This document shows positions 641 to 22,565 of a stretch of DNA of 64,000 nucleotides, one piece after another. Each line of letters opens with the position of its first letter. Within the stretch, counting starts at the first letter, position 1. The stretch is from NCBI RefSeq assembly GCF_965638725.1, contig NC_134962.1, positions 565,501 to 629,500 on the forward strand, written 5' to 3'. The DNA comes from Aptenodytes patagonicus (Eukaryota; Chordata; Aves; Sphenisciformes; Spheniscidae). Below the pieces are notes generated by a model. It was not told the origin of the DNA. It ran no database searches and was given only the letters and a program-made list of their open reading frames with translations. The translations under genes and the position numbers were made by a program.

Positions 641-2781
641 GAGGCGGCCACGAGCGCGGCAGGGAGAGGCTGCTTTATTGGTGAAAGTGCGGGGGGCTGT
701 GGCGCACCCCAAGCAGGGGACCCTGGAGAGGAAGCTGAGGCTGAAGGCTCCGAGCTGGGAGCGCGGCCGGGCCGGGAGGGACTGTGCGGGGCCAGGGCCT
801 GGGCGTGCAGGACTCACGTCGGGCAGCAGCTTCCCTGTGGCCAGGCTGGCAGGAGGCGGCTGCGCCTGCAAAGGGAGCAGAGAGCCATGAGTGGGACAGG
901 CGCGCGGGTGCTGTGCCGTGGGTGCTGCGGGAACCCTGGGGTCGGTGGGTGCCTGACTGACCTCAGTGGAGGGGTGTCACACAGGAGACCTTGCCACAGC
1001 CGTTCCTGCAGCACTTCTGGCTCCCAGAGCAGTTGGAGTCCGTCTTGCACTGGTTCATGCAGACGCCTAGCATGGGGATCCCCGGACTGACGGGTGGGCA
1101 GGTTCCGGGCTTCTCTGCAAAGGCGAAGGGACACGGCCTGAGACCCGCCGGCCCCAGCACGAGGGGCAAGGCTGGCCCTGCAGCTTCCGGAGCCGCAGGC
1201 ATGGCCCTGGCCCCTGGCTGCCGCGGAGGAGGGACCCCTGTGCCGGCCGGCAGCTCCCCCACCCCATGCTTCTGCCCACTGGTGCTCCTGCCAGCCTGAC
1301 CCGATGGGGACACGTTGGGGAGGCCATGCAGTGTGGTGATCCCCCATGGTCCCTGTGCTCAGCCTCCCGCTCAGGGGTGCATGGCTGGCACAGGACGCGC
1401 AGCCGCAGCACGCAGTCCCGGTGGCAGCCTTGGCCCCGCTTTCCCCCACAGCTGTCGTGGACAGCTCCAGCCATGCGCTCGTGGCGCGTGGGCTCAGCTC
1501 AGGCCTCAGCGAGGGGCACGTGCCCCCCAGACAGCCTGTGCCCTGGCTGCGTGGGGCCCCTGCCCTGCCGTCCCGCTGCCTGCTGCTGCCTGCCACCAGC
1601 ACCGGGCTCCCGGCTCTGCACCACGCCGTCCTCTGCTGTGGCACAGCCAGGCCAGCTCTGTCCTTGCAGGCGGCGATGGAGGTACCGGAGCCTCTGGTTC
1701 ACATCCGTGTGTTTGCAGCTGGAGATCCCACATCCTGTGCCCGTCTACCGGGGCTGCTCTCCAGCAGGACCGGCGCGGAGAGCGTACTCAGCCAGGTGGC
1801 TGTGGGGCCATGTCCGGCGCAGGGCCGGGGATGGCGCCGTTGGGAGACTCTTCCCAGGCGCGGGGTCGGGAGGCAGGACAGTGCCCACATCCCAGGCCGG
1901 CAGCTGCCCACGGCGAGGCTGAGTGGGCAGCGAGGGCTGTGAGGGGGAGCAGCGCAGGCCCCTGCCCTCTGCACTGGCCCCAGCGTTGTTCTGAGGCGTC
2001 TGCTCAACCCCCGTGTCGCTGGGAGGAGGAAGGGGTGAGCGTGGCCCCGGCGAGCCCGGGCAGGGGGTGCACCGCGCCGGGAGGCCGCCCCGCGGGAGCA
2101 CACCCTGACCCCGCCACGGTCCCCGCGCAGCCCCCGATACCCGCACTGCAGCCAGACGTGCAAGGGGCGCCCAGGCCCACGGCCGCTACTGCGCCCCAGA
2201 GCACCGGTGCTGCCGGCTGGGACGGGCTGTCAGCTCGCAGCAGCGGGGCCAGCTCCGGGCAGCGGGGCCGGGAGCAGGAGGGAGTGTTACCGTTGGGCTT
2301 CTGGCAGGCCTTGCCGCAGGCCACTGGGCAGCACTTGAGGGTGCTCTCGCAGTCGCCATCGGACTGGCACCCCACCGTGCAGTTCACTGCTTCTGCCGCT
2401 GGGTCCGGGCACACGCCGGCTTTCGCTGCAAGGCAAAGGCGGAGGGCGTGGGTGGGCGCCGGGGCTGCCGGCCCCACGGCAGGGCGAGGGCTGCCGTTCC
2501 GAGGCGGGAGATGCTGCCGCCAGCCCCAGGGCTGGGTCCAGGGATGCTGCTGAGCCCAACCGCGCCGGGCGCCGGCTGGCTCTCGATCCCGGCCCCCACC
2601 CCAGCAGGCCCTGGGGCTGGGAGTGATGCTGGCTGCTTGCCCGGGGCGTGCTGAGCCGTGCCGTGCCGTGCCGTGCCGTGCGCTCATACTCACTGGTGTC
2701 ATTCTGGGCGGATGCTGGTGGCAGCTCTGCCCAGAGAGCCAGGAGCCCCGCCAGGACGAGCACGCTGCGGGCCTTGGGCAT
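641..2781 (-). CDS. WFDC2: WFDC2 (HE4)-like secreted two-WAP protein, complete copy (unit A)
   Basis: The coding exons on the minus strand are 2781-2694 (signal peptide, starting [10 protein letters not shown]), 2425-2291 (WAP domain 1) and 1114-963 (WAP domain 2 and stop). All junctions are phase 1 with GT-AG sites, and the spliced product is 124 residues, the same length as human HE4. Each WAP domain has the full eight cysteines including the KCC core. The C-terminus [17 protein letters not shown] is nearly the same as the end of human WFDC2 as I recall it, which is the basis for the name. NDT and NCT sequons are present. Two bases after the stop is a donor (GTCAGT on the minus strand). A probable 3' UTR exon starts at 865, and a polyadenylation signal lies at 679-674. 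The start is the only Met giving a signal peptide, about 45 bp below a TATA-like CTTAAAG. The family is secreted; a role in epithelial protease control is inferred from family knowledge. Confidence 0.87.
674..679 (-). terminator. WFDC2: Polyadenylation signal of WFDC2 copy A
   Basis: AATAAA on the minus strand (TTTATT on plus), downstream of the probable 3' UTR exon that starts at 865. Unit B lacks an equivalent because the duplication does not reach this far left. Confidence 0.6.
2655..2679. repeat. (GCCGT)5 microsatellite in WFDC2 intron 1
   Basis: Five perfect GCCGT units lie 9 bp intronic of the exon 1 donor (ACTCAC on plus, 2688-2693). The same array with the same copy number is in unit B at 16136-16160. 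Confidence 0.9.
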
Positions 2782-2824
2782 GGTGCGGGAGCCGGTGCTG
2801 CGCCTGCAGGGCCGCCCGGCCGGC

Positions 2825-2831
2825 CTTTAAG
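2825..2831 (-). promoter_or_regulatory. WFDC2: TATA-like element of WFDC2 copy A
   Basis: CTTAAAG on the minus strand, about 45 bp upstream of the WFDC2 start codon, which leaves room for a short 5' UTR. It is a non-canonical TATA box and is conserved in unit B at 16306-16312. Confidence 0.45.
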
Positions 2832-5800
2832 CTCCTCTCCAGGTGGGGCCGGCGGGCGGGAGGGCTCGGCCTTCCGGGTGGCTCCCAAGGGCCGGGCAGG
2901 GCCAGGCTCCCCCTTCGCGCTTGCACAACCCGAGTATCAGGTATCTGCCGCTGCTGGCTGCCGACCAGGAAGGGGGAGCCTCAAGGAGACCGGGCAGCCA
3001 CGCTGAAAACTTGCCCGGCAGGAACAGCAGCCAAGTGCTGCTGGCCGCGGCCCCCGTGCGCCGCATGCCGGCCCCCGGCCGGCCCCGGCCCCTGAGGCAG
3101 CCGGAGCGCAGGGCTGTCATGGCCCTGTGCGGAGCTCGGCCGCCGGAGGCTGCGGGGATGCGGCTGGTACCGCCAGCGGAGAGCGCGGCAGGCATGGGTG
3201 CGCCAGGGACAGGGCATGAGCCATCCCTGCCACCGCCCTGGCCACGGTCGCGAGCTCGAGTGGAGCCCCTGGCCTGGGCCGCTGATGCCTAGAGGCCGGG
3301 ACGAGCCGGCGGCGCGGACGGGGCTGCGGCTTGGCTGCAGCTGCAGCTCGCCCGGCTCCTGATCCAGCCACTTGTTCTCCTCCAGCTTTCTCTCCTCGAC
3401 TGAAGGGCCCTCCAGGCTGCCTGCACCTCCGGGCAGGTTCTCGCCCCGGGGCTCCCCCGTGCCTCCCCGGCAGCCTCGGGAGCTCCTTCTGCCCAGCCGC
3501 AGCCTCGTCCCATGGCCCTCGCTGTCCTCGCAGCCTCCAACAGCCCTGGGGATGCAGCCCGGACTGGCCGGCAGCGCCGGTCGGGCAAGTGGCTGGTGGG
3601 GAGTGAGCCGCCAGCATGCTCCAGCTGCGTGCCTGGTGCTCTGGGGCATGGCAGTGCCGGGGGCCGTACAACCCCAGACCCTCTCGGCCTGGCGGCTGTC
3701 TGGGGTACCCCTCCCGCGGCACGTGCGCCGCCCTCCCGCAGGCCGGGATGCCTCGCAGCGCATGGCAGTGCCGAGCTGGGGTTTGTTTGGATAGGTCCAG
3801 CTAGCCAAGGGGCCCAGATCACCCGGCGTGGCTGCCCTGCTCCCATCAGTGTCTGCTGCTCCACCAGTTCCCGTCTCCTTCGCAGGTGCTGTCGGTGGTG
3901 GCTTCAGTTCCTCCGGGGCTGCTGATGGAAGGGGAGCCGCCCAGCACTGTGCTGGGTGCCCCAAGGACCCTGGCCCCTTTGCTCGCAGCTCTTGGTTTCG
4001 GCTCAATGTGTTGGGTCATTTGGCTGCCGTTGCGACGCAGGTGCCTGCGCGCGGTGCCGGTGCTGCCCGGCTGGAGGGCACAGGCTGGACACCTCTGCTG
4101 GGAAGCAATCCCAGAGCATCCCGGTTCCCTGGGCCCCATCCTAGGCACGGTCGCAGGCTGAGCCTCTCCTGCGTGGGGAGGAGGGCGAGACTTGCCCCGT
4201 CTCCAGTCATGATGTGCCCTCATCGCTGGCAGAGGCTCCAGGGGCAGCCCCAGCTCCGGGCTGGAGCATCCTGCAGACCCGCGTGGGCCAGGGGCGCGTG
4301 GGACGGGGGACGTGGTCCCTGCCCCGAGTCACGAGCTGGTGTCCGCTCTGCCAGGGTCCGTCTCCAGGTAATTTAAGCCCACAGTCAACAACACGGCACG
4401 GAGCGGAGCGGCAGTAAATCGGTAACTGTTTGCCTTTGCCGGTGGTCCCCTCCCCGCCGCAGGTGTTTATGCAGTAACAGGAGCCGGCGCGGATGGCCCA
4501 GCCGCCTGCCCAGCTGCCGCTCTGCGCTTCACCGCTGTCAGCAGCGGGAGCCGACGCACAGGCCCAGGCTGGCGGGGAGAGTGGCAGGGCGGTGGCGGGG
4601 AGAGCAGCAGGGCAGTCCTCATCCCTGCGCCCTCCGGGCTGGGGTGCTCGGCGGCTGGGTACCGGGGAGCTGCCTTGGGAGGCTGCCAGGACCTGGCCAT
4701 GCTCGGGCTGGCCGGGAAGCTCCCACTCTGCCCGTGCAGCTGGGCCCCACCGGGGACAGCGCTTTGGGGAACTGGGCTGGGCTGGTGTTTCTAGCCCTGG
4801 GCTGACCCTGGGACTCCCTGAATAAAGGCGGCCATGTTGCAGCCCAGTGATCCCCGTGCCAGGGCCAGGGAACGCTGCTCCGGCGGCCGGGGCAGGATTG
4901 GGGTGGTAACGTGGCCGCTGCAGGCGTGAGCGTCGGCTGGGCGGTGTGAGCGCTGCCCTCCGGCATGGAGGCGAGGGACCTGTGCCGTCCCTGCCTGTGC
5001 CGTGCAGTGACAGAGCCCACCCGGAGCCAGCAGCGGCCTTCCTGGAGCAGCAGCGTTGCTGCCGATCCAACGCTGCCCACCCAGCGGCGCCGTCCCCGCT
5101 GCCAGGGCAGGGGCTGCCCCGGTGCCCTGCCGTCACTGAGCTGCTGCTCCTGTGCCGGTGCTGCCGGCGGCGCTTGTCTTTGAGAGTTATTGCCCTGGTC
5201 TGACCTGCAATTGCTCTGCCCCACTGTGTGGGATGTCCTTGGTGCTGGCAGGGAGCAGCCAGAGCTGGGAGGCTGCGAGCATGGACGCCGGCAGCCGGGC
5301 TGCGCCGGAGCAGCTGGACGGGAGCAGACGGGAGCCCAGAAACGGGCTCGTGGCAGGAGATGAGGGGGAAACCGCAGAGGACGGCGAGAGCTGTGGGGAG
5401 CAGCGTGGGTGTCGGTGGGTTTGCCCAAGGTTGTGTCTGGCTGCCGAGTGGCCAATCCAGCTGGAGCTGCCCCCAGCCAGCCGGAGCAGCTGGAGAGGGA
5501 CTGAACGTGCCGGCGGCAGGGCCAGTGGCCGTGCTGGGCTCCAGCCCGTGCGGTCAGCATCGCTTTCTGGGAGACAGAAATGCTTTGGCTCCTGTCCCCA
5601 ATGCGTGGCATTCGGGATGCTGCCGCTCCCGCCCCGGCTCTGCCAGGCGCTTCCTCGACAGAGGCCGAGGACGGCTGTGGGGAGCGCGGGGGTCTGCCGG
5701 CACGGCTGCAGGCAGCCGTCCCCGTGCCAAGGCACGTCCCGGGGGAGGATCCTGGCTGAGGACGCAGGGTCAGCAGCCCCGAGCCTGACCCCAAAGGCTC

Positions 5801-6500
5801 TTCCCTGCAGCATCCCTGGGTGGCAGTGCCCACCGCCGCTGAGCCTGGTCACACTGGCTGCACCCAAGCCCCGCGGGTGACTGCGGCTCCTTCGTGGCAG
5901 CAGGGAAGGTGCTGGAGTCACATCTCCCTGCCCGCCGAGGGAGGGCAGTCAATGATTAAAAGGGGAGCGTTGCTGGGCCCGGCAAGGTGCCCCTGGGCGG
6001 ATAGCCAGCCTCCCGCTGCCGGCACGGAGCAGGGAAAGCAGGGGACAGCGATAGAGAAGGATGCCCCTTCCTCCGGGAGACATCGGGCCCCAGCAGTCGG
6101 CAGCTCAGGGTCCCCGCGCTGTGTGCATGGGCTGACGCACGGGGAATTATCTGACTCCTTTGGGGCCCAGTCATGCAACCGGCTGGCAGCCGAAGGCCGG
6201 TGCACCCCATGGGCAGGAGGGCTCCCGCTGCGCTGCTGCGTCCTGCTGCTGCTTCCAAGTCCCCCCCCGCCTGCCTGTGCTGCCCGCAAGGCGCAGACCT
6301 CGGCGGCCCCTCTCTGCGCTGCAGAGCTGGAGCCTCGTGGCTTGGCCGTGGTGCGTGGGGTGCCCTAGAGCTGGGGAAGCGCCTGGCTCTGTGCCGGTGT
6401 GATCGGTCTTACCTGCTCGTTCCACGCGGGACCCCTGGCCCAAGCCAGCCCCGCAGCACCCCGAGAGCCAGCAGGACGCAGCCGCCCTGTGCCCCCTGAG
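2832..6500. other. Noncoding stretch between WFDC2 exon 1 and the orphan signal exon
   Basis: About 3.7 kb of GC-rich DNA. I searched both strands for the WAP signature (DC followed by KCC/RCC spacing) and for Kunitz GPC spacing and found none. An isolated plus-strand AATAAA lies at 4821-4826 without a recognisable gene before it. If the orphan exon at 6508-6592 is an alternative WFDC2 first exon, this region is its intron. Confidence 0.5.
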
Positions 6501-6507
6501 CACTCAC

Positions 6508-6592
6508 CCGTGCCCCCGGCAGCCACAGCAGCCGGCTGCAGCTGGGCACACAGGGCGAGGATGCCCACGAGCAAAATGCTGGCGGTCTTCAT
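6508..6592 (-). CDS. Orphan signal-peptide exon, possible alternative WFDC2 first exon (unit A)
   Basis: The 85-nt coding part starts MKTASILLVGILALCAQLQP and gives a typical secretory signal peptide of 28 codons plus one base. It ends at a good donor (GTGAGT on the minus strand, 6507-6502) in phase 1, the phase used by every WFDC2 junction. A TATA box (ATATAAA, 6644-6638) sits about 50 bp upstream of the ATG. No WAP exon follows before WFDC2 exon 1 at 2781. Joining to WFDC2 exon 2 at 2425 would be in frame and would swap the signal peptide. Alternatively it is the first exon of a WFDC gene whose remaining exons were lost. Seen: exon, donor, TATA box. Inferred: the partner exon. Confidence 0.55.
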
Positions 6593-6637
6593 GGTGCTCC
6601 CTGTGGGTGCCGGATGGCCAGCGTGGGTCGGCGGGGG

Positions 6638-6644
6638 TTTATAT
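6638..6644 (-). promoter_or_regulatory. TATA box of the orphan signal exon (unit A)
   Basis: ATATAAA on the minus strand, 46-52 bp upstream of the ATG at 6592. It is the clearest canonical TATA box in the unit and supports a real transcription start for this exon. The copy in unit B is at 20119-20125. Confidence 0.6.
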
Positions 6645-6679
6645 CCGCGCGGAGCCGGGGAGGGGCCGCCACACACATA

Positions 6680-9040
6680 ACCTTCGGGTGCCGAAACTCT
6701 TGTTGCGTTTCACAGTTGTGCCCGAGGCAGCGACAGCCCCACGCTGTGTTGTTGCCTGAGAAATCATTTACCACAGCCCTGTCCCAGCCCCAGCAGCCAG
6801 GCTGCAGCCAGGGCAGGGACGTCAGCACCCAACAGCACCCTCCCCGGGGGAAAGGGAGACGTGGCCGTGGGCCAGGGTCACCCCCGTGGCCACGGGGAGC
6901 CCAGAGGAAGGGGCTGGAGCTCTCCGGCTGGGAAAAGACGAGACAGAGGGGACAGGAGGGAGGCTGGTACACCCAGGGTGGCCTGGAGAGTGCAGATGGG
7001 ACTTTCTTCCTGCAGCTGCAGGACCTGGGGGCGGTGTGGGAGACCTGCAGGCGAGGGGCACAGGGTGGGCAGTCTCCTCGCTAAGCTGTGGGACTTGTTG
7101 CTGCAGACGTCAAGTGCTGCCCAGGTGCGACAAGTGATTAGACGAGTTTATGGGAGAGGAACCCAGGGGGCACTGAGCAGGAGGACACTCCCCTGGGGTG
7201 GTGGCCATCCTGGTGGCGCGGCACGGGGGCGTTCTAGGACAGAGAGCTGGGGGTCTGTCCCCGGCCATGCCCACCCCGGACACCCGGCGCCTGCTTTCCC
7301 TGGCCCCAGCCTGGTCCCACATCACACTGCGTCTGCCTGCGGAGCTGTGGGTGACAGCTGGCCGGGTCCCCGCAGGGCAGCATGGCCTCGGGGAGAGTGG
7401 AGCGTGGGAAGCCTGTGCGACGTGCCAGGCTGGGCGCACCCGCTGCTTCGCGCCATGCACCGAGCACCATTCCTCTGCGGGGACAGGCGGGCGGCTGGGT
7501 GCCGTCACGTCGGCTGGCTGCAGACAAGTCCCGGCAGATGAGTGCTCCGGCGGGGTCAACACAGGGGCTGCCTTTCACCTCGCTGCGCACCAGGACCGGC
7601 ACGAGGTGGCCCTGGGCAGGGTGGGGAAGCCCAGGGTTACCGGTGCGGGGAGGTCACAGAGAGCCCAGTGCAGCCAAGCGTGCGAAGGGTGACCATGCGG
7701 AGGATGAGGTGTGCTCTGTGCCCGCGGGGACCCCATGGCGTTGCCGCTGCCGCGCCCCGAGACTCCGCCAAGCAGGACCTTTGCTCCCTGCTCACCATCC
7801 TATGTGGTGCGGGCGCACAGCCTGGCTGCACGTGTCTCTGCCGGGGGTCTGCACCGTGGCACCTCTCGCTGCTGAATTGCGGCCATGCCAGCACAGCTTG
7901 CTGTGCCCCGCTGGATGGCAAAGGGCACAGGCAGGTGCTGCCAGCAGGTCGGGCAGAGGCAGCCTGTCTTGCTGGGCACGGGAGGGGGCTGGCAGGGCTG
8001 CAGCAAGGCATGGGGGGCAGCCCGTGGCCACGGTGGGCAGAGAGGGGCAGGACCTGGGTTTTTGAGGGGCTGGTGGAAGGGGGCTGGTCCTCCGCTAGAG
8101 CTGGAGACGGGGAGAAAGGCCTCGGCCGGGGTCCCAGTGTGTGTGGGAGGACGCTCCCTGCCTGGGGGTTTGTCGCGAGGCCAGGCCGGCTGGAAACAGG
8201 CGTCTTTGTGCTGAGGCTGACGTGACCGCTGCGGTCTCATGCGGCGTTTTACAGTTCAACGATCATATTACCCCGCTTGGAAATCCCTGTTTGCGTCATC
8301 CCGGCTCCAAGTGGCCCAATGCACTTCTTGCTACAGAAACTCTGGGTCCGAAACAGGGAGAGAACCTTTAGGAAGAAACCCAGGGGCTGTGAAAGCAGTC
8401 CTATTCCCGCTTGATGTGCATGGGGTCCCTCTGAGTGACACCTGCCCCGACACGGCACGTGCCGCAGTGCCGTGGTGGCGGTGCGGGGAGTCGCCAGCCT
8501 CCCCCGAGCAGCGCCTGGTCCTTTGGCTGGCACTGGTGGCCCCGCACTCTGCAGGGCTTCGGCCTCGCGCCCTTCCTCCCCCGGCTGCCGCACGCCCGTT
8601 GCGTGTTACGGCGCGTAGCTGCGTGCTGTTAATGACAGCGTGTTCGAGTCCTGCCGGCACACGGCGGTGTGAAGCCTGGCGTGTCCTCCTGCCACCGTGC
8701 CCTGGCCGCGGGGAAGGGTCCCCCCGGCCTGTGCAGCCCCCTCCCTGCCTGCAGCCCCCGCCCTGCTGTGCCGCGCCGGGGCCGGGGCTGCGCAGCTCCG
8801 CCCGTGCCCCTGCCTGCGGTGTCTCGCAGCTCCGTGGGCTCCCCGGGCTCCGTGGGCTGCGGGCCCGATCCTGGCGCAGCATCCCGGGCGGCGGCCGGCA
8901 GAGGAGGCTGTTGCTCCGTCAGAGCGGGCCGGGCCGGGGCGCGGGGCCGGGCTCCGCCGGGCTCCGGGAGCGCCGTCCCCGTCCCCGGAGGCGGAGACCG
9001 GCGCGGGGCGCTGCGCCAGCCCGGGCCGGGCCCGGGGCTC
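6680..9040. other. Spacer between the minus-strand orphan exon and the plus-strand WAP3-Kunitz gene
   Basis: About 2.4 kb separating two divergently transcribed exons. The long frames here are unsupported GC-rich translations. An AAGTGCTGC motif near 7110 resembles the WAP KCC codons but is followed within 30 bases by a stop, with no other cysteine spacing. I see no gene. Confidence 0.5.
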
Positions 9041-9084
9041 CCGGGCTGTACTTAAGCGGCCGCGGGCGGCGCGGGGGCAGCGCC

Positions 9085-11687
9085 ATGAAGCCGGGGCTGT
9101 TCCTGCTGCTGCTGCTGCTGGCCCCCCCGGGCCCCCCCGGCCACTGCCGGCCGGCCTCGGGGCGCCGCGTGCCAGGTGAGCCCCGGCCCGGGGGTGCGCT
9201 CTGAGCTCGGCCCCGCTCCCCGCCACCGCCCCGGTGTCCCCCTCGCCCCCTCGCCCCTCTGGTGGGGGCGCGCTGTGGGGGCCACGGGCTCCGAGCTGGG
9301 ACGTGCCGCCGGGTACCTCCCGCCCAGCGCCGCGGTCCCCGCGGCTGCAGAGCCCGCACCCGAGCGGCCGGGCCGGACCCCCCCGGGAGCAGCGCGGGGG
9401 CCCGGGGAGGTGTCTCCCCGGGCCGCCTCACCCGCCGGCAGCTTCCGAGGCGCTGGGCGGCCCCGCGGGCTCTCGAAGCGGCGGCTCCACCGGTGCTCTG
9501 CACCGCGACGTGCCCCGCTGCCAGGGCAGAGCAGGTCCCGGCCGTGCCACCCCGCCAAGGGGGGCCCTGCCCAGGCTGGGGGGCCCCGCCCGCCCACCCT
9601 AACCCCCTGCCCGCTTTCCCAGAGGGCTACGGCGATTGCCCCCCGCCCAGGAGGATCCCCCTGAAGGCCTGCCACAACTTCTGCTCCTCGGATGGGGACT
9701 GCCCGGGCAGGGAGCGCTGCTGCAGCACCGGCTGTGGACAGGAGTGCCGGCTCCCCATAGGAGGTGAGGGGGTCCCTTCCCCCCCACAGCAGCCCTGAAC
9801 GAGCCCGTGCTCAGCCCTCCAAGGGGGGTGTGTGACTGCAGCCACCTCGGGGAGCGGGTCCTGCAGCCCCGCCAGTCCCTGCGCCCCGTCCTGGCCTGTG
9901 GTCGGGATGTGCTGGGTCTGGGCTCTTCCAAGCACAGCCGCTGCCTGTGGGGTGCATCACCCGCAAGGGCCGGCGTGGGTGGCCCCTGCACCCAACTCCC
10001 CGCTCTCATCCCCTCTGGTGTAGTGGGACAGGGGTGCCCGTTGCTCCCTGCCCGCAGGACCCGGGGGTGGGCACCCTGTGGGTGGGATGGGCGGTGGGAG
10101 CGGGCAGGGGCTGGTAGAGGTCTGACCCTGCTGGACACCTCCAGTCAAGAGGGGCTTCTGCCCACGGCCGGACCCTGACTTGATAACCATCTGCCTGGTG
10201 GAGTGCGGCAGCGACAGCGAGTGCCCAGGCAACGAGAAGTGCTGCAGCATGGGCTGCCATGTCCACTGCATGCCGCCGGTGCCAGGTAAGGGCGGCCATG
10301 GGGCTCGGTGGGAGGGGGGGCCGCAGCCAGGACAGACCTCGAGTGCGAGCTGGTCTCCTCTCTCACCCACAGCCAACCCGGGCGTCTGCCCCAAAAGAAG
10401 GGTGCTGCATACCTTCGCCCCCTGCAACAGCTCTTGCAGCGACGACACCGACTGTCCCTGCCACAAGAAGTGCTGCTTCACGGGCTGCGGCCGTGGCTGC
10501 CTGCATCCGGAGAGAGGTACCACGGCCCCGCTCCTGCACGCTGGCTGGGGCCACCAGCTGGGTCCTGCTGCCTCCAGCAGCCCCCTGTCCGCGGGTGACA
10601 TCTGTCACCTCCCGCCCGTGCCTGGCCCGTGCAGGGGACGCTTCCATCACTACGTCCACAACCCTGCCACGGGGACCTGCCAGCCATTCACCTACAGCGG
10701 CTGCGGGGGGAACCCCAACAACTTCAGGACAGTGGAGGAGTGCCAGCAGGTCTGCCAGCAATCGGGTGAGAGGAGGGGCTGCACTGGGCCAGACTGAGCT
10801 GCACTGGGCTGGACTGGGCCAGACGGGGCTGCCCCTGCCTGGGCAGGGGTGGGGGCCGGGCAGGGGGTGGGAGCACAGAGCTGCGCTGCCTGCAGCTGGG
10901 CAGCCGGACCCAGGGGGTCTGCTGTACCTCCCCGCGGAGCGAGGGTGGCCTCCCCGCAGCAGGGAGAGCGGCAGCATCCCACATTGCTCTGGCACACGGC
11001 GGGGGGGCCTCCGGGCATTTATGCTGGGTGATTTCAACCAGCTCGCAGCTCTGTCCTGGGAGCTGGCGTCATCTTTGGTCAGAACCAGGCAACAGTGCTA
11101 GTAATCATGATTTTGCAGCCTGACTACCAAAGTAGGAAACCTGACCACGGAGGCGCTCAGCCTGCACGGGTTGGGGGAGAAGCCTGCTCTTGCAAGTCGC
11201 CTTCCCACGTCTCTGCCAAATGCGTTTGGCACAGGGCGTGCATTTGGGAGAGCAGGCGGCTGGTGGAGCCGCGGTGGCCCCCGTGGGGGGTTAGGGGGGC
11301 CCCGGCACTGTGTGGGCACTCGCCTGGTTGTGACACTCAATACCGAGCGGAGCTGTGGGCGGTTGGGGCTGTTGGTGGTTGAGCAGCCGCTGCCGCTGCT
11401 CAGCTTCCTTGGCACGGTGGTTGTAGCTCCACGCAACAACGGAACCACGAGAGCTGCTCCTGGCTGTGCCACGTCCCTGGGGATGCGGGCCAGGGGGGCA
11501 GCCCGTGCCCAGGGCTGGGGGGCAGATGCTGGGGGGCTGAATGCACTGGGGGTGCAGGCAGCAGCCAGTCTGTGGCCAGCACTGCTCCGCAGCACCAGCA
11601 CCCTGCTGCCTCCCCCTGCTCCCCTGCCCTGCCTGCATCCCCCTCCTCACCATCCCCTTTTGTTCCCCAGGGAGAGCCAAGGAGTGA
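9085..11687 (+). CDS. Secreted WAP-WAP-WAP-Kunitz protease inhibitor (unit A)
   Basis: Exons 9085-9175, 9623-9763, 10145-10285, 10373-10765 and 11671-11687 join in phase 1 to give 260 residues. The order is: signal peptide (1 to about 25), WAP1 (C36-C72), WAP2 (C83-C119), WAP3 (C130-C167), a 27-residue linker (173-199), and a Kunitz domain (C202-C252). The Kunitz domain has six cysteines and Arg212 at the P1 position, predicting trypsin-like targets. The C-terminus is GRAKE and AATAAA follows at 11790. WAP3 and Kunitz share one exon: no acceptor gives the right frame, and the interval between them is open. Copy A is odd in having a ninth WAP3 cysteine (C154) and His at Kunitz positions 217 and 220, where BPTI has Arg20 and Tyr23. 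The architecture resembles the WFDC8/EPPIN group, but orthology is not claimed. Confidence 0.9.
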
Positions 11688-11789
11688 CCCCGAGGAGGAG
11701 GCGGCAGCGGGGCTTGGGCCCCTCCGTGGGGCCAGCAACCCGGGGGCCGGGGTCTGCGGCGGTGCTGGCTGCCGCGCTCTGCCCCACGC

Positions 11790-11795
11790 AATAAA
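11790..11795 (+). terminator. Polyadenylation signal of the WAP3-Kunitz gene (unit A)
   Basis: AATAAA, 103 bases after the stop codon at 11687 in the short terminal exon. It is conserved in unit B. Confidence 0.85.
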
Positions 11796-11819
11796 GCTGC
11801 CAGAACGCCTGGCTTGCAG

Positions 11820-14508
11820 CAGCCCAGCCTCCACTGCCTTGCCTGACTTGCGCCTCCGCGGTGCCAGCGGCTCCACGTGCTGCCCAGCACCTTCCCGGCC
11901 GCATCCACGTGCGCGGGAGCTGTGAGCCCAGACCCTGGCTGAGCCCGGGGACCCCCGTACCCGGGCATGTGGTGCACGGGCTTGCTCGCGGTGGCAGGTG
12001 GCCCCAGGTGGCCCCTCGCTCCCGGGTCTTCACCCGGCCCCCACAGCAGGCGGGCAGTGCAGAGGCCCTGGCACCTCGCATGGCTGCACGGAGCTGGGCA
12101 GCACCGGCCCTGGTGTGAAATGTCCCTCCTGGACACGGCCCCTCCCTGGTCCGCGGGGGCCATGCGGGGATGGCCCCGGTGCTGCCCTGGCTGAGCGCCT
12201 GCAGCTACTCGCTCCCAGCTCGGTCCCTGAGGAGAGCACGGCCGGGGGACACGGGTCACGCTGCTGTGCTGGGGTTGGGACGGGGCGGGGGTGCCCATCC
12301 CCGTGCCAGCCTCCGCTCCTGCCTCCAGCTGGGCTCCCGGGGGGCCGAGGGCTCATGTCCTTCCCTGCTCGGTGCCGTCCCGGGCCCAGTGCCCATCCCG
12401 GGAGCTGCCGCGCCCGGAGCTCGTCCTGGTCTTGGCGTGGGGAGCGGGCGCAGGGTGCGGCCGGAGCTGGGGCAGGCGCAGGAGCAGCTCCCACAGGGGT
12501 GGCACCGTCCCTGCCAGGCACCACTGCCTGCAAGCCAGGGACCTGCAGGTCTTCCCCAGAAACACCTCCTGTTGGCGCTGGTAGCGTCTTATTAATTTGC
12601 CAATTAATGAGAACCCAGAGAGGCGAGCGGGCTGTGGATGAGTGCACTGCCTGCAGATGCTGGGGACGTTCCCAGGAAGGCTGAGCGAGGGCACAGAGTA
12701 CCTTGGTGTGCTCCGGGACAGCGGTACCTCCACGGCCGTCCCGCAGCGGTGACACCCCATCCTCTGCCTGCCACCACGGGGACACTTGGGCTGGGCTTGG
12801 GGGTGGGCAGAGCTGGGGGGGTGTGCTGGGTCCGAGCTCGGCACTGCCTTCCTCCTCTGCGTCGGGTGCGGTGGGCGCTGGGCACGGGGGCGATGAATGA
12901 CGGAGCGGCCGCAGGAGAGCCCTCGCTCCGGGCAGCGCTCCGGGCAGCGCTGGGGAGCTGGTGCCGAACCGGCGGGTGATGCCCACCCACTCTGGCAATG
13001 CCGCGGTGCCCCTGGCCCCCCCGGGACAGGTCTGGGGAGCTGGGGGGCAGGAGTGCCTCAGAGGTGGCATTTGCTTGGGGGGAGCAGGTTTTTGTGCCAA
13101 AGCTGCGGCAGCCGGACAGGGCCATGCACGCTCCCTCCCCACGTGCCGCTGGCCGTGGCCGCTGGTGAGCTCTGCAGGCAGAGACAGCGAGGAACTTGAA
13201 ACAGAAAAGATGAAAACCTCCTGAAAGTGCCAATTTATTATTCAGCTCCCTCCCCACCTGCTCCCGCTCAACCCCGAGCTGGCGCCGTGGCTGCTGCCGG
13301 CTGCCGAGATGAAAGTCCCTGTGTGGGGCAGCCACGGGGGGCAGCACCCCGTCCCCAGCACCCCGTCCCCGGAGCTGGTGGGGGCTGTGCCTGCTGCGCG
13401 GGGAGCTCAGGCAGGGCCGCAGCACGTGGCCCTGGGGCTGTCCCCCAGTTCGGGGCGAGGACGGTGCCCGGCCCAGGCAGGGTGCTGCCCGCTCCAGCCC
13501 CCCGCTCAGCCCTGCATCGGGCCGTCCCCCATGACCCGGCTCTTGGGGGTTAACGGCACCGGCTGCCTGAACTCCGCCGCAGAAGCTGCTGCTCCATCCC
13601 AGCTCTAATAGCTCTTATCCGTAACCATCCAGCCGCCGGCTGCGGTGAGACCGAGATGGAGGCGTGGAGGGGCCGGGGCTGGGGTGGCGATGGCTGCCCG
13701 TGGGCAGGTGGCAGCCCCGGCCCCATGCCACACGGCACAGCCCGGCCGGCGGCACGGCCATGCATGGCACGCCGGCTGGCGGCACGGGGAAGGCGTCCTC
13801 CCAAAATGGGGTTTTTATTACAGCCATATATCACTGCGGCGGCCTGATGCGGGCAGACGGCGGTGATTTTTCTTCACGGTTTACAGACAAATGAGGGGAA
13901 GGAAAATTGATGTGAACTTTGCTATAGCGCGAGGTCGGGCACGGGCAGGGAGCTGGTTATGGATGAGCTGGGTGCTGCTGGGGCCGCCTGTCCCCGGGCC
14001 CCTCCTGGCCACCTTCTCCGGGCTGGATGGATGGGGGCACCGGTGGCGGCAGGACCAGGATCATCGCGTCTGGCTTGGGGACCGTGCTGCTGCTCGGGGG
14101 GGCTGGGGGGGAGGGGCTTCTGGCTTCCCTGGCCCCCCATCGCCCAAAGCACGGCCCCGAGCGGGCGGCTGCGCCTGTCCCTCGTCGGAGGGATGCTCGG
14201 CCACTCAGGGGGGAGGAGCGTGTGGGCAGGGTTATTAGTTCCAGCGGATATTCATTAGCGCTGCAAACGTGGTTTGGATGTGCAGCGTCGGGCGGGCTGC
14301 TGTCACCGCCTTCTGGCGAGATCTCGACTGCTTTCAACACAACTAAAGTTGCCTCCAAACACCATGGTCCTGCCCAGTATAAGATAACAGTTAATAGCGA
14401 CTATCAGCTTCTCCATAAGGTCCATAAATATTAATACAATTCTAATTAGTTCCTTTAAATACATTCCCTAAATTAAGTGTTTCCTTGGCAATAAATCAGT
14501 GGTGGTTT
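11820..14508. other. Gene-free right end of unit A with AT-rich islands
   Basis: No coding sequence is recognised. GC-rich DNA is interrupted by AT-rich islands at about 12585-12612 (TTATTAATTTGCC then AATTAATGAG), 13196-13250, 13805-13925 and 14225-14508. These look like conserved noncoding elements because of paired homeodomain-type ATTA/TAAT cores, but conservation cannot be tested here. All are duplicated in unit B. Confidence 0.4.
14225..14508. promoter_or_regulatory. AT-rich island, candidate regulatory element (unit A)
   Basis: About 280 bp whose composition shifts sharply from the GC-rich flanks. It contains repeated ATTAGC, TTAATA, CTAATTAG and TTTAAAT motifs and a GATAAC site. The tandem-duplication junction lies at its right edge. 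The regulatory role is inference. Confidence 0.35.
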
Positions 14509-16262
14509 GGCAGTTGGAGTCCGTCTTGCACTGGTTCATGCAGACGCCTAGCATGGGGATCCCCGGACTGACGGGTGGGCAGGTTCCGGGCTTCTCTGCA
14601 AAGGCGAAGGGACACGGCCTGAGACCCGCCGGCCCCAGCACGAGGGGCAAGGCTGGCCCTGCAGCTTCCGGAGCCGCAGGCATGGCCCTGGCCCCTGGCT
14701 GCCGCGGAGGAGGGACCCCTGTGCCGGCCGGCAGCTCCCCCACCCCATGCTTCTGCCCACTGGTGCTCCTGCCAGCCTGACCCGATGGGGACACGTTGGG
14801 GAGGCCATGCAGTGTGGTGATCCCCCATGGTCCCTGTGCTCAGCCTCCCACTCAGGGGTGCGTGGCTGGCACAGGACGCGCAGCCGCAGCACGCAGTCCC
14901 GGTGGCAGCCTTGGCCCCGCTTTCCCCCACAGCTGTCGTGGACAGCTCCAGCCATGCGCTCGTGGTGCGTGGGCTCAGCTCAGGCCTCAGCGAGGGGCAC
15001 GTGCCCCCCAGACAGCCTGTGCCCTGGTTGCGTGGGGCCCCTGCCCTGCCGTCCCGCTGCCTGCCGCTGCCTGCCACCGGCACCGGGCTCCCGGCTCTGC
15101 ACCACGCCGTCCTCTGCTGTGGCACAGCCAGGCCAGCTCTGTCCTTGCAGGCGGCGATGGAGGTACCGGAGCCTCTGGTTCACATCCGTGTGTTTGCAGC
15201 TGGAGATCCCACATCCTGTGCCCGTCTACCGGGGCTGCTCTCCAGCAGGACCGGCGCGGAGAGCGTACTCAGCCAGGTGGCTGTGGGGCCATGTCCGGCG
15301 CAGGGCCGGGGATGGCGCCGTTGGGAGACTCTTCCCAGGCGCGGGGTCGGGAGGCAGGACAGTGCCCACATCCCAGGCCGGCAGCTGCCCACGGCGAGGC
15401 TGAGTGGGCAGCGAGGGCTGTGAGGGGGAGCAGCGCAGGCCCCTGCCCTCTGCACTGGCCCAAGCGTTGTTCTGAGGCGTCTGCTCAACCCCCGTGTCGC
15501 TGGGAGGAGGAAGGGGTGAGCGTGGCCCCGGCGAGCCCGGGCAGGGGGTGCACCGCGCCAGGAGGCCGCCCCGCAGGAGCACACCCTGACCCCGCCACGC
15601 TCCCCGCGCAGCCCCCGATACCCGCACTGCAGCCAGACGTGCAAGGGGCGCCCAGGCCCACGGCCGCTACTGCGCCCCAGAGCACCGGTGCTGCCGGCTG
15701 GGACGGGCTGTCAGCTCGCAGCAGCGGGGCCAGCTCCGGGCAGCGGGGCCGGGAGCAGGAGGGAGTGTTACCGTCGGGCTTCTGGCAGGCCTTGCCGCAG
15801 GCCACTGGGCAGCACTTGAGGGTGCTCTCGCAGTCGCCATCGGACTGGCACCCCACCGTGCAGTTCACTGCTTCTGCCGCTGGGTCCGGGCACACGCCGG
15901 CTTTCGCTGCAAGGCAAAGGCGGAGGGCGTGGGTGGGCGCCGGGGCTGCCGGCCCCACGGCAGGGCGAGGGCTGCCGTTCCGAGGCGGGAGATGCTGCCG
16001 CCAGCCCCAGGGCTGGGTCCAGGGATGCTGCTGAGCCCAACCGCGCCGGGCGCCGGCTGGCTCTCGATCCCGGCCCCCACCCCAGCAGGCCCTGGGGCTG
16101 GGAGTGATGCTGGCTGCTTGCCCGGGGCGTGCTGAGCCGTGCCGTGCCGTGCCGTGCCGTGCGCTCATACTCACTGGTGTCATTCTGGGCGGATGCTGGT
16201 GGCAGCTCTGCCCAGAGAGCCAGGAGCCCCGCCAGGACGAGCACGCTGCGGGCCTTGGGCAT
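14468..16262 (-). pseudogene. WFDC2: WFDC2 copy B, 3'-truncated by the duplication breakpoint
   Basis: Exon 1 (16262-16175) and exon 2 (15906-15772) are intact and match copy A apart from one Asn-to-Asp change at the exon 2 donor codon. Exon 3 begins normally at 14595. At 14510-14512 the sequence crosses into the right end of unit A, so after the residues CKTDSNC the frame reads QTTTDLLPRKHLI and stops at 14468. The predicted 116-residue product keeps WAP1 but only four of eight WAP2 cysteines. The normal stop, 3' splice structure and polyadenylation signal are gone. It could be a dead copy, encode a one-WAP protein, or supply its promoter and first exons to copy A by read-through splicing. 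The truncation is seen directly; its consequence is inferred. Confidence 0.85.
16136..16160. repeat. (GCCGT)5 microsatellite in WFDC2 copy B intron 1
   Basis: Same five-unit array as at 2655-2679. Microsatellites usually change length quickly, so the equal copy number fits a very recent duplication. Confidence 0.9.
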
Positions 16263-16312
16263 GGTGCGGGAGCCGGTGCTGCGCCTGCAGGGCCGCCCGG
16301 CCGGCCTTTAAG

Positions 16313-19300
16313 CTCCTCTCCAGGTGGGGCCGGCGGGCGGGAGGGCTCGGCCTTCCGGGTGGCTCCCAAGGGCCGGGCAGGGCCAGGCTCCCCCTTCGCG
16401 CTTGCACAACCCGAGTATCAGGTATCTGCCGCTGCTGGCTGCCGACCAGGAAGGGGGAGCCTCAAGGAGACCGGGCAGCCACGCTGAAAACTTGCCCGGC
16501 AGGAACAGCAGCCAAGTGCTGCTGGCCGCGGCCCCCGTGCGCCGCATGCCGGCCCCCGGCCGGCCCCGGCCCCTGAGGCAGCCGGAGCGCAGGGCTGTCA
16601 TGGCCCTGTGCGGAGCTCGGCCGCCGGAGGCTGCGGGGATGCGGCTGGTACCGCCAGCGGAGAGCGCGGCAGGCATGGGTGCGCCAGGGACAGGGCATGA
16701 GCCATCCCTGCCACCGCCCTGGCCACGGTCGCGAGCTCGAGTGGAGCCCCTGGCCTGGGCCGCTGATGCCTAGAGGCCGGGACGAGCCGGCGGCGCGGAC
16801 GGGGCTGCGGCTTGGCTGCAGCTGCAGCTCGCCCGGCTCCTGATCCAGCCACTTGTTCTCCTCCAGCTTTCTCTCCTCGACTGAAGGGCCCTCCAGGCTG
16901 CCTGCACCTCCGGGCAGGTTCTCGCCCCGGGGCTCCCCCGTGCCTCCCCGGCAGCCTCGGGAGCTCCTTCTGCCCAGCCGCAGCCTCGTCCCATGGCCCT
17001 CGCTGTCCTCGCAGCCTCCAACAGCCCTGGGGATGCAGCCCGGACTGGCCGGCAGCGCCGGTCGGGCAAGTGGCTGGTGGGGAGTGAGCCGCCAGCATGC
17101 TCCAGCTGCGTGCCTGGTGCTCTGGGGCATGGCAGTGCCGGGGGCCGTACAACCCCAGACCCTCTCGGCCTGGCGGCTGTCTGGGGTACCCCTCCCGCGG
17201 CACGTGCGCCGCCCTCCCGCAGGCCGGGATGCCTCGCAGTGCATGGCAGTGCCGAGCTGGGGTTTGTTTGGATAGGTCCAGCTAGCCAAGGGGCCCAGAT
17301 CACCCGGCGTGGCTGCCCTGCTCCCATCAGTGTCTGCTGCTCCACCAGTTCCCGTCTCCTTCGCAGGTGCTGTCGGTGGTGGCTTCAGTTCCTCCGGGGC
17401 TGCTGATGGAAGGGGAGCCGCCCAGCACTGTGCTGGGTGCCCCAAGGACCCTGGCCCCTTTGCTCGCAGCTCTTGGTTTCGGCTCAATGTGTTGGGTCAT
17501 TTGGCTGCCGTTGCGACGCAGGTGCCTGCGCGCGGTGCCGGTGCTGCCCGGCTGGAGGGCACAGGCTGGACACCTCTGCTGGGAAGCAATCCCAGAGCAT
17601 CCCGGTTCCCTGGGCCCCATCCTAGGCACGGTCGCAGGCTGAGCCTCTCCTGCGTGGGGAGGAGGGCGAGACTTGCCCCGTCTCCAGTCATGATGTGCCC
17701 TCATCGCTGGCAGAGGCTCCAGGGGCAGCCCCAGCTCCGGGCTGGAGCATCCTGCAGACCCGCGTGGGCCAGGGGCGCGTGGGACGGGGGACGTGGTCCC
17801 TGCCCCGAGTCACGAGCTGGTGTCCGCTCTGCCAGGGTCCGTCTCCAGGTAATTTAAGCCCACAGTCAACAACACGGCACGGAGCGGAGCGGCAGTAAAT
17901 CGGTAACTGTTTGCCTTTGCCGGTGGTCCCCTCCCCGCCGCAGGTGTTTATGCAGTAACAGGAGCCGGCGCGGATGGCCCAGCCGCCTGCCCAGCTGCCG
18001 CTCTGCGCTTCACCGCTGTCAGCAGCGGGAGCCGACGCACAGGCCCAGGCTGGCGGGGAGAGTGGCAGGGCGGTGGCGGGGAGAGCAGCAGGGCAGTCCT
18101 CATCCCTGCGCCCTCCGGGCTGGGGTGCTCGGCGGCTGGGTACCGGGGAGCTGCCTTGGGAGGCTGCCAGGACCTGGCCATGCTCGGGCTGGCCGGGAAG
18201 CTCCCACTCTGCCCGTGCAGCTGGGCCCCACCGGGGACAGCGCTTTGGGGAACTGGGCTGGGCTGGTGTTTCTAGCCCTGGGCTGACCCTGGGACTCCCT
18301 GAATAAAGGCGGCCATGTTGCAGCCCAGTGATCCCCGTGCCAGGGCCAGGGAACGCTGCTCCGGCGGCCGGGGCAGGATTGGGGTGGTAACGTGGCCGCT
18401 GCAGGCGTGAGCGTCGGCTGGGCGGTGTGAGCGCTGCCCTCCGGCATGGAGGCGAGGGACCTGTGCCGTCCCTGCCTGTGCCGTGCAGTGACAGAGCCCA
18501 CCCGGAGCCAGCAGCGGCCTTCCTGGAGCAGCAGCGTTGCTGCCGATCCAACGCTGCCCACCCAGCGGCGCCGTCCCCGCTGCCAGGGCAGGGGCTGCCC
18601 CGGTGCCCTGCCGTCACTGAGCTGCTGCTCCTGTGCCGGTGCTGCCGGCGGCGCTTGTCTTTGAGAGTTATTGCCCTGGTCTGACCTGCAATTGCTCTGC
18701 CCCACTGTGTGGGATGTCCTTGGTGCTGGCAGGGAGCAGCCAGAGCTGGGAGGCTGCGAGCATGGACGCCGGCAGCCGGGCTGCGCCGGAGCAGCTGGAC
18801 GGGAGCAGACGGGAGCCCAGAAACGGGCTCGTGGCAGGAGATGAGGGGGAAACCGCAGAGGACGGCGAGAGCTGTGGGGAGCAGCGTGGGTGTCGGTGGG
18901 TTTGCCCAAGGTTGTGTCTGGCTGCCGAGTGGCCAATCCAGCTGGAGCTGCCCCCAGCCAGCCGGAGCAGCTGGAGAGGGACTGAACGTGCCGGCGGCAG
19001 GGCCAGTGGCCGTGCTGGGCTCCAGCCCGTGCGGTCAGCATCGCTTTCTGGGAGACAGAAATGCTTTGGCTCCTGTCCCCAATGCGTGGCATTCGGGATG
19101 CTGCCGCTCCCGCCCCGGCTCTGCCAGGCGCTTCCTCGACAGAGGCCGAGGACGGCTGTGGGGAGCGCGGGGGTCTGCCGGCACGGCCGCAGGCAGCCGT
19201 CCCCGTGCCAAGGCACGTCCCGGGGGAGGATCCTGGCTGAGGACGCAGGGTCAGCAGCCCCGAGCCTGACCCCAAAGGCTCTTCCCTGCAGCATCCCTGG

Positions 19301-19981
19301 GTGGCAGTGCCCACCGCCGCTGAGCCTGGTCACACTGGCTGCACCCAAGCCCCGCGGGTGACCGCGGCTCCTTCGTGGCAGCAGGGAAGGTGCTGGAGTC
19401 ACGTCTCCCTGCCCGCCGAGGGAGGGCAGTCAATGATTAAAAGGGGAGCGTTGCTGGGCCCGGCAAGGTGCCCCTGGGCGGATAGCCAGCCTCCCGCTGC
19501 CGGCACGGAGCAGGGAAAGCAGGGGACAGCGATAGAGAAGGATGCCCCTTCCTCCGGGAGACATCGGGCCCCAGCAGTCGGCAGCTCAGGGTCCCCGCGC
19601 TGTGTGCATGGGCTGACGCACGGGGAATTATCTGACTCCTTTGGGGCCCAGTCATGCAACCGGCTGGCAGCCGAAGGCCGGTGCACCCCATGGGCAGGAG
19701 GGCTCCCGCTGTGCTGCTGCGTCCTGCTGCTGCTTCCAAGTCCCCCCCCGCCTGCCTGTGCTGCCCGCATGGCGCAGACCTCGGCGGCCCCTCTCTGCGC
19801 TGCAGAGCTGGAGCCTCGTGGCTTGGCCGTGGTGCGTGGGGTGCCCTAGAGCTGGGGAAGCGCCTGGCTCTGTGCCGGTGTGATCGGTCTTACCTGCTCG
19901 TTCCATGCGGGACCCCTGGCCCAAGCCAGCCCCGCAGCACCCCGAGAGCCAGCAGGACGCAGCCGCCCTGTGCCCCCTGAG
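16313..19981. other. Noncoding stretch, unit B equivalent of 2832-6500
   Basis: No WAP, Kunitz or other domain is recognised on either strand. It differs from unit A at only a handful of transitions. Confidence 0.5.
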
Positions 19982-19988
19982 CACTCAC

Positions 19989-20073
19989 CCGTGCCCCCGG
20001 CAGCCACAGCAGCCGGCTGCAGCTGGGCACACAGGGCGAGGATGCCCACGAGCAAAATGCTGGCGGTCTTCAT
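19989..20073 (-). CDS. Orphan signal-peptide exon (unit B)
   Basis: Same 85-nt phase-1 signal exon as at 6508-6592, unchanged in coding sequence, with TATA box and donor intact. Its nearest downstream minus-strand partners are WFDC2 copy B exon 2 and, beyond the truncated exon 3, the unit A exons. Confidence 0.55.
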
Positions 20074-20118
20074 GGTGCTCCCTGTGGGTGCCGGATGGCC
20101 AGCGTGGGTCGGCGGGGG

Positions 20119-20125
20119 TTTATAT
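20119..20125 (-). promoter_or_regulatory. TATA box of the orphan signal exon (unit B)
   Basis: ATATAAA on the minus strand, the duplicate of the unit A box, with unchanged spacing to the ATG at 20073. Confidence 0.6.
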
Positions 20126-20160
20126 CCGCGCGGAGCCGGGGAGGGGCCGCCACACACATA

Positions 20161-22521
20161 ACCTTCGGGTGCCGAAACTCTTGTTGCATTTCACAGTTGT
20201 GCCCGAGGCAGCGACAGCCCCACGCTGTGTTGTTGCCTGAGAAATCATTTACCACAGCCCTGTCCCAGCCCCAGCAGCCAGGCTGCAGCCAGGGCAGGGA
20301 CGTCAGCACCCAACAGCACCCTCCCTGGGGGAAAGGGAGACGTGGCCGTGGGCCAGGGTCACCCCCGTGGCCACGGGGAGCCCAGAGGAAGGGGCTGGAG
20401 CTCTCCGGCTGGGAAAAGACGAGACAGAGGGGACAGGAGGGAGGCTGGTACACCCAGGGTGGCCTGGAGAGTGCAGATGGGACTTTCTTCCCGCAGCTGC
20501 AGGACCTGGGGGCGGTGGGGGAGACCTGCAGGCGAGGGGCACAGGGTGGGCAGTCTCCTCGCTAAGCTGTGGGACTTGTTGCTGCAGACGTCAAGTGCTG
20601 CCCAGGTGCGACAAGTGATTAGACGAGTTTATGGGAGAGGAACCCAGGGGGCACTGAGCAGGAGGACACTCCCCTGGGGTGGTGGCCATCCTGGTGGCGC
20701 GGCACGGGGGCGTTCTAGGACAGAGAGCTGGGGGTCTGTCCCCGGCCATGCCCACCCCGGACACCCGGCGCCTGCTTTCCCTGGCCCCAGCCTGGTCCCA
20801 CATCACACTGCGTCTGCCTGCGGAGCTGTGGGTGACAGCTGGCCGGGTCCCCGCAGGGCAGCATGGCCTCGGGGAGAGTGGAGCGTGGGAAGCCTGTGCG
20901 ACGTGCCAGGCTGGGCGCACCCGCTGCTTCGCGCCATGCACCGAGCACCATTCCTCTGCGGGGACAGGCGGGCGGCTGGGTGCCGTCACGTCGGCTGGCT
21001 GCAGACAAGTCCCGGCAGATGAGTGCTCCGGCGGGGTCAACACAGGGGCTGCCTTTCACCTCGCTGCGCACCAGGACCGGCACGAGGTGGCCCTGGGCAG
21101 GGTGGGGAAGCCCAGGGTTACCGGTGCGGGGAGGTCACAGAGAGCCCAGTGCAGCCAAGCGTGCGAAGGGTGACCATGCGGAGGATGAGGTGTGCTCTGT
21201 GCCCGCGGGGACCCCATGGCGTTGCCGCTGCCGCGCCCCGAGACTCCGCCAAGCAGGACCTTTGCTCCCTGCTCACCATCCTATGTGGTGCGGGCGCACA
21301 GCCTGGCTGCACGTGTCTCTGCCGGGGGTCTGCACCGTGGCACCTCTCGCTGCTGAATTGCGGCCATGCCAGCACAGCTTGCTGTGCCCCGCTGGATGGC
21401 AAAGGGCACAGGCAGGTGCTGCCAGCAGGTCGGGCAGAGGCAGCCTGTCTTGCTGGGCACGGGAGGGGGCTGGCAGGGCTGCAGCAAGGCATGGGGGGCA
21501 GCCCGTGGCCACGGTGGGCAGAGAGGGGCAGGACCTGGGTTTTTGAGGGGCTGGTGGAAGGGGGCTGGTCCTCCGCTAGAGCTGGAGACGGGGAGAAAGG
21601 CCTCGGCCGGGGTCCCAGTGTGTGTGGGAGGACGCTCCCTGCCTGGGGGTTTGTCGCGAGGCCAGGCCGGCTGGAAACAGGCGTCTTTGTGCTGAGGCTG
21701 ACGTGACCGCTGCGGTCTCATGCGGCGTTTTACAGTTCAACGATCATATTACCCCGCTTGGAAATCCCTGTTTGCGTCATCCCGGCTCCAAGTGGCCCAA
21801 TGCACTTCTTGCTACAGAAACTCTGGGTCCGAAACAGGGAGAGAACCTTTAGGAAGAAACCCAGGGGCTGTGAAAGCAGTCCTATTCCCGCTTGATGTGC
21901 ATGGGGTCCCTCTGAGTGACACCTGCCCCGACACGGCACGTGCCGCAGTGCCGTGGTGGCGGTGCGGGGAGTCGCCAGCCTCCCCCGAGCAGCGCCTGGT
22001 CCTTTGGCTGGCACTGGTGGCCCCGCACTCTGCAGGGCTTCGGCCTCGCGCCCTTCCTCCCCCGGCTGCCGCACGCCCGTTGCGTGTTACGGCGCGTAGC
22101 TGCGTGCTGTTAATGACAGCGTGTTCGAGTCCTGCCGGCACACGGCGGTGTGAAGCCTGGCGTGTCCTCCTGCCACCGTGCCCTGGCCGCGGGGAAGGGT
22201 CCCCCCGGCCTGTGCAGCCCCCTCCCTGCCTGCAGCCCCCGCCCTGCTGTGCCGCGCCGGGGCCGGGGCTGCGCAGCTCCGCCCGTGCCCCTGCCTGCGG
22301 TGTCTCGCAGCTCCGTGGGCTCCCCGGGCTCCGTGGGCTGCGGGCCCGATCCTGGCGCAGCATCCCGGGCGGCGGCCGGCAGAGGAGGCTGTTGCTCCGT
22401 CAGAGCGGGCCGGGCCGGGGCGCGGGGCCGGGCTCCGCCGGGCTCCGGGAGCGCCGTCCCCGTCCCCGGAGGCGGAGACCGGCGCGGGGCGCTGCGCCAG
22501 CCCGGGCCGGGCCCGGGGCTC
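20161..22521. other. Spacer before the WAP3-Kunitz gene (unit B)
   Basis: Equivalent of 6680-9040. No gene recognised. Confidence 0.5.
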
Positions 22522-22565
22522 CCGGGCTGTACTTAAGCGGCCGCGGGCGGCGCGGGGGCAGCGCC

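Follow-up and report, generated by a model that had tools for sequence, protein, structure and literature searches.

Two tandem copies of a WAP-Kunitz inhibitor gene lie in a bird genome, within a stretch of 64,000 nucleotides (referred to here as the window, C14:565501-629500 in an assembly of 1.35 Gb and 618 contigs), and amino acid replacements between them are concentrated in exons 3 and 4. The question raised by this locus is whether these replacements were driven by diversifying selection, as the first-pass annotation suggested for an inhibitor in conflict with microbial or sperm/egg proteases, or whether they accumulated by ordinary mutation in a spare copy. The latter appears likelier than an arms race because the numbers of differences are too small and their distribution is too patchy.

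A tandem duplication in a WFDC gene cluster

The duplication unit measures 13.48 kb and is repeated head to tail, with copy A at 1029-14509 and copy B at 14510-27992, the end of the latter being the GCA common to both outer edges (both copies were delimited, with no strand assigned, by self-BLAST and alignment). Self-BLAST shows 99.64% identity over 13,484 bp, and alignment of the whole unit yields 48 substitutions and one 1-base indel. Transitions make up 40 of the 48 substitutions, 31 of them at CpG and nine elsewhere. The joint at 14509/14510 contains no N, carries the 3-bp GCA as a microhomology, and sits inside an exon, as indicated by a Pfam match across the edge. The surrounding WFDC cluster is large, with C14:552773-590000 containing 25 of the 29 WAP Pfam matches among those listed for the genome, and another Kunitz exon lies at C14:552773. 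The locus is a young tandem duplication in which a WAP-WAP-WAP-Kunitz inhibitor gene of a WFDC gene cluster was copied in its entirety. It represents an ordinary case among young duplicates, the type of inhibitor gene being a known one.

A neighboring WAP gene on the minus strand is also affected by the duplication. One of its WAP exons is cut by the breakpoint (at the 14510 joint and at 972-1112); this exon is complete at copy A and truncated at copy B, where it runs on into QTTTDLLPRKHLI and then a stop. A CpG difference at 2294/15775 changes Asn to Asp directly after a WAP domain in an exon of a minus-strand neighbor. Close to the joint, a double substitution (TG/CA at 14500-14501/27980-27981) lies 9-10 bp away from where copy B begins and is possibly a trace of error-prone repair.

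Gene structure and protein domains

Each copy contains one complete plus-strand gene with five exons, and the 260-residue frame is intact in both A and B; the exon boundaries and the signal-like leader were assigned by visual inspection. In copy A, exon 1 (9085-9175) provides the start codon, a signal-like hydrophobic leader and a phase-1 donor, and exon 2 (9623-9763) encodes WAP domain 1 (PF00095, 45.1 bits in both copies), both exons being free of differences. Exon 3 (10145-10285) encodes WAP domain 2 (48.6 bits in A, 49.1 in B), which carries E97G and G99S. Exon 4 (10373-10765) encodes WAP domain 3, a linker and the Kunitz domain, with seven replacement differences and one silent difference, and scores 38.7 bits in A versus 46.8 in B for WAP and 72.4 versus 75.9 for Kunitz. 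Exon 5 (11671-11687) contains the stop codon and is followed by AATAAA. The copy B gene occupies 22566-25168, also on the plus strand, with exons at 22566-22656, 23104-23244, 23626-23766, 23854-24246 and 25152-25168, an offset of 13,481. A separate intron between WAP domain 3 and the Kunitz domain was considered and set aside, as inspection by eye found no phase-matched donor/acceptor pair within exon 4 and the frame is open; the WAP3-linker-Kunitz region is provisionally treated as a single exon. Intron 4 contains a short 30-bp tandem repeat at 10776-10832, and similar stretches are present on two other contigs, C30 and C21.

All six WAP domains of the two copies match PF00095 at 38.7-49.1 bits (cut-off 20.8), and the six-cysteine Kunitz domains match PF00014 well above the cut-off of 21. 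Alignment of the copy B Kunitz domain to solved Kunitz proteins supplies the BPTI register, in which the P1 codon is Arg212 (10633-10635, plus strand) in both copies. Judging from these domains, the protein is most likely a secreted serine-protease inhibitor acting through its Kunitz domain, and a trypsin-like specificity is predicted because P1 is Arg. The six cysteines in register and the P1 Arg are shared with BPTI-type inhibitors (TFPI, bikunin, BPTI), but the Kunitz domain here belongs to a WAP-Kunitz fusion. The combination of WAP and Kunitz domains and the location in a WFDC cluster resemble Eppin, WFDC6 and WFDC8, a likeness drawn from domains and context. Human eppin is arranged WAP-Kunitz and the Kunitz domain of WFDC8 is internal, unlike the WAP-WAP-WAP-Kunitz order found here.

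Differences in exons 3 and 4

Exons 3 and 4, which together span 534 bases, contain ten differences, of which nine are replacements (copy A residue first: E97G, G99S, D148N, C154R, L168M, H217R, V219A, H220Y and A223V) and one is silent, at T244; another 38 substitutions and the one indel lie in the remainder of the unit. The alignment thereby bears out the first-pass count of ten sites, nine replacement and one silent, as well as its figure of about 40 for the rest of the unit. By class, the ten comprise five CpG transitions, four other transitions and one transversion; exons 3 and 4 thus hold four of the nine non-CpG transitions in the unit, and all four are replacements. The 87-bp intron between the exons (10286-10372) and the interdomain linker show no A/B differences in the alignment, also as first described. 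That change is confined to domain-coding sequence is correct only in part: the excess is nominally centered on the exons, but the cluster extends over 10079-10824, starting in intron 2, and two of its 12 differences are intronic, one at either end.

Within the cluster, four replacement differences are packed into 19 bp of the plus strand (10649-10667), at BPTI positions 20, 22, 23 and 26. The probability of at least four of 48 differences falling within 19 bp anywhere in the unit is 0.0013. This group consists of three non-CpG transitions and one CpG transition and may represent one mutational event.

Clumping of differences along the unit

All P values reported here are nominal, the exon 3/4 region having been picked after inspection, and this applies to the scan probabilities under uniform and CpG-aware models, which are 0.008 and 0.019 for 10 differences in 621 bp, 0.0015 and 0.004 for 12 in 746 bp, and 0.003 and 0.008 for 10 in 534 bp. 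The densities of the exons (10/534) and of the noncoding DNA next to them (2/212) show no significant difference (Fisher P = 0.52), although the exons are denser in differences than the noncoding DNA of 9764-11670 as a whole (5 differences, P = 0.002).

Overdispersion is found across the whole unit even with the exon 3/4 kilobase left out, with a variance/mean of 1.95 in 500-bp bins (P = 0.004) and 1.79 in 1-kb bins (P = 0.038). The largest difference-free gap measures 3,042 bp (P = 0.00015). In the alignment, 7038-10078 (no strand assigned) contains no A/B difference and spans exons 1 and 2, which are identical in the two copies because they lie inside this empty 3-kb stretch. A second long stretch, 2295-5706, has a single A/B difference. 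Together, these near-empty stretches suggest recent homogenization between the copies or a haplotype mosaic. At the opposite extreme, 11 gaps in the unit are 20 bp or shorter versus 3.2 expected, and outside exons 3 and 4 there are 6 such gaps versus 2.1 expected (P = 0.015). When differences no more than 20 bp apart are merged into events, a coarse procedure that may also join independent changes, the exons hold five events and the densest 621 bp six (P = 0.42).

The exon-centered excess has a mixed standing: it disappears at the level of events, but it is kept when the real, clumped pattern is shifted circularly along the unit, as only 1.1% of shifts bring at least 10 differences into the exon 3/4 footprint (P = 0.011), with 0.5% for the reversed pattern and 1.5% when all five exons are considered. 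Moving the 12-difference cluster along by as much as 150 bp in each direction gives an exonic count equal to or above the observed one in 36% of the placements, which makes the lack of differences in the intron and linker unremarkable.

Replacement bias

Given the mutation classes, about 6.3 of the ten exonic differences are expected to be replacements. The one-sided probability of nine or more in ten is 0.066 given the mutation types, and 0.062 with rates taken from the noncoding DNA of the unit. Class-aware comparison of replacements with silent and noncoding changes gives P < 0.05 in five of six tract definitions (0.023 to 5 × 10−7), all five being wider than 746 bp and presupposing a uniform rate, which is rejected because the unit is overdispersed; the sixth gives P = 0.055. 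The replacement excess is suggestive but under-powered.

What changed in the domains, and in which copy

The protease-contact loops of a Kunitz domain, which we take to be BPTI positions 11-19 and 34-39, are identical in A and B, as is the P1 Arg, and none of the four Kunitz changes (positions 20, 22, 23 and 26, register from the alignment to solved Kunitz proteins) falls inside these loops. Kunitz columns were compiled from 27 of the 29 matches in the genome, the two window copies being set aside. Of these 27 domains, 18 have Arg and none has His at position 20, 4 have Ala and none has Val at position 22, and 16 have Tyr and one has His at position 23; copy A has His, Val and His, respectively. 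Copy A also has a ninth cysteine in WAP domain 3 (C154), two residues after Cys4, which occurs in none of 15 other WAP exons. The latter were taken by cysteine pattern from C14:546000-629500, as compared to 29 WAP Pfam matches listed genome-wide, and leave aside four matches outside that interval and some inside it that the pattern does not capture; the duplicated unit itself supplies two of the 15, one being WAP domain 1 of the gene under study. In WAP domain 2, E97G adjoins Cys3, beside which the canonical WAP inhibitory loop would presumably sit; the loop beside Cys3 is short here.

The Pfam score of A is below that of B in all three changed domains (WAP2, WAP3 and Kunitz). The paralogues point to copy A as the probable changed copy at four of the nine replacement sites (C154, H217, V219 and H220), a polarity drawn from paralogues rather than orthologues. 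G99S, D148N, E97G, L168M and A223V have no safe polarity, and for G99S the CpG logic and the paralogues conflict. On family profiles, which were small, home-made and scored with copy B taken as ancestral, a fraction of 0.32-0.96 of random replacements scores no better than each of the nine, whose mean of about −1.1 bits is milder than the random means of −2.0 to −2.1. A223 fits these profiles better in copy A (+0.9).

The search for orthologues yielded two bacterial matches in the genome contigs, both weak, Kunitz-like and unsuited to polarizing the changes, and no relative in the viral contigs. The bacterial matches are on two Acidobacteria MAG contigs (L009:5001-5096 and L010:402-488) and show 46-52% identity to part of the linker-Kunitz region. 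A literature search for bird WFDC-Kunitz duplications, judged by title and the start of the abstract, found nothing on this gene.

Origin of the replacement cluster

We consider it probable that a recent tandem duplication was accompanied by mutational clumping and by relaxed constraint, mainly in copy A. The clumping would be of ordinary origin, reflecting deamination at CpG sites, multi-nucleotide mutations over short spans, and a patchwork of differing divergence, which might itself arise from copy-to-copy conversion or from duplication of divergent haplotypes; the densest patch, starting in intron 2, would then cover exons 3 and 4 by chance. With two copies present, constraint on copy A may have relaxed, so that replacements off the family pattern could be retained, with both copies keeping the Kunitz P1 Arg. 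This reading is supported by the CpG share (31/48 overall, 5/10 in exons 3 and 4), by a replacement excess that reaches only P = 0.062-0.066 once mutation class is taken into account, by the overdispersion and long gaps found without the exon 3/4 kilobase, by the surplus of short gaps and the loss of the cluster upon merging, and by copy A residues that are rare or absent in paralogues, together with lower Pfam scores in A and profile ranks within the random range. It is weakened by the fact that relaxation alone predicts about 6.3 replacements rather than nine, that circular shifts rarely place as many differences in the exons, that four of nine non-CpG transitions fall in these 534 bases and are all replacements, and that replacements exceed the noncoding expectation in the wider tracts. 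The changes are also milder than random on profiles, with A223 fitting copy A better, both frames are intact, and the paralogue-based polarity covers four of nine sites. Diversifying selection, of the kind expected if proteases of microbes or of the reproductive tract were opponents in an arms race, might instead have driven the WAP2, WAP3 and Kunitz replacements after the duplication, and we regard this as unlikely. The ratio of nine replacements in ten, their surplus relative to noncoding DNA for five of the six tracts and the coincidence with exons when clumping is preserved (P = 0.011) are consistent with it, and there is precedent in the trappins of armadillo, cow and pig, whose paralogues arose by recent duplication and show a faster rate in the coding exon than in the introns and more divergence there than in noncoding regions, which the authors attribute to positive selection or relaxed constraint (PMC2831891). 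The proposal of selection thus retains the excess over noncoding DNA and the circular-shift result, and it loses ground where mutation class is considered and where differences are merged into events. The Kunitz changes, moreover, avoid the contact loops, the changes in copy A fall on conserved positions and add a ninth cysteine, and the region was picked after being seen. Fast exons are not universal in this cluster, as a comparison pair of WAP exons differs at 9/118 exonic sites (7.6%) versus 42/195 flanking sites (21.5%).

The two copies could also be splitting functionally very soon after the duplication, with selection fixing replacements in WAP2, WAP3 and the Kunitz scaffold with an unchanged P1 site, which seems rather improbable. 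About as doubtful is the idea that the copies are partly two haplotypes of one locus, brought together by a false (heterotype) duplication or by unequal exchange between divergent haplotypes, in which case the differences would be allelic. The A/B divergence of 0.36% is near reported bird heterozygosity (0.95% in zebra finch and 0.34% in Anna's hummingbird), the patchy divergence resembles a recombining haplotype pair, and false duplications placed on a single scaffold have been described even for bird assemblies of the VGP, gaps between paired copies being among their listed marks (PMC9516828). The joint here, however, has no N and shows a clean 3-bp microhomology inside an exon, and nowhere else in the assembly is there a third copy of the gene. 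Gene conversion with a WAP/Kunitz paralogue of greater divergence as donor, named as an alternative in the first-pass annotation, could account for the four differences in 19 bp, but no donor was found at the DNA level in the assembly: full-length matches to 9600-11800 across the 1.35 Gb are the two copies only, and three further matches are 44-67-bp pieces of intron. BLAST against the remainder of the window and the part of the cluster to its left matches exons 2-4 only in pieces of 12-76 bp, those above 50 bp being 69-77% identical, none of the 27 other Kunitz domains combines the copy A residues at positions 20, 22 and 23, and the intron and linker have no imported changes. A conversion tract from a third paralogue was, therefore, rejected and is very improbable. 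Long-read errors are mostly indels, and base-calling or polishing errors in copy A, the other alternative raised at first, were rejected as equally remote on the substitution spectrum, which is germline-like (40 of 48 transitions, 31 at CpG, and a single indel in 13.5 kb), even though the odd states (C154, H217, V219 and H220) are all in copy A.

Implications for WAP-Kunitz inhibitors

As with mammalian trappins of the WFDC locus, recent paralogues of a WAP inhibitor are compared here. The trappins have a reported exon 2 distance of 0.17-0.24 (PMC2831891), as opposed to 10/534 bases (1.9%) at this locus, which offers one pair, ten differences, and three WAP domains plus a Kunitz domain. When ten differences are clumped and rich in CpG, a 9:1 ratio can mimic an arms race without reaching significance. 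If the two copies were splitting functionally, they would give two inhibitors differing in stability, partners or assembly, in which the new cysteine of copy A could pair or dimerize. If diversifying selection were the cause, the locus would be a very young bird counterpart of the mammalian trappins, in which neofunctionalization would still be datable and assayable at sub-percent divergence.
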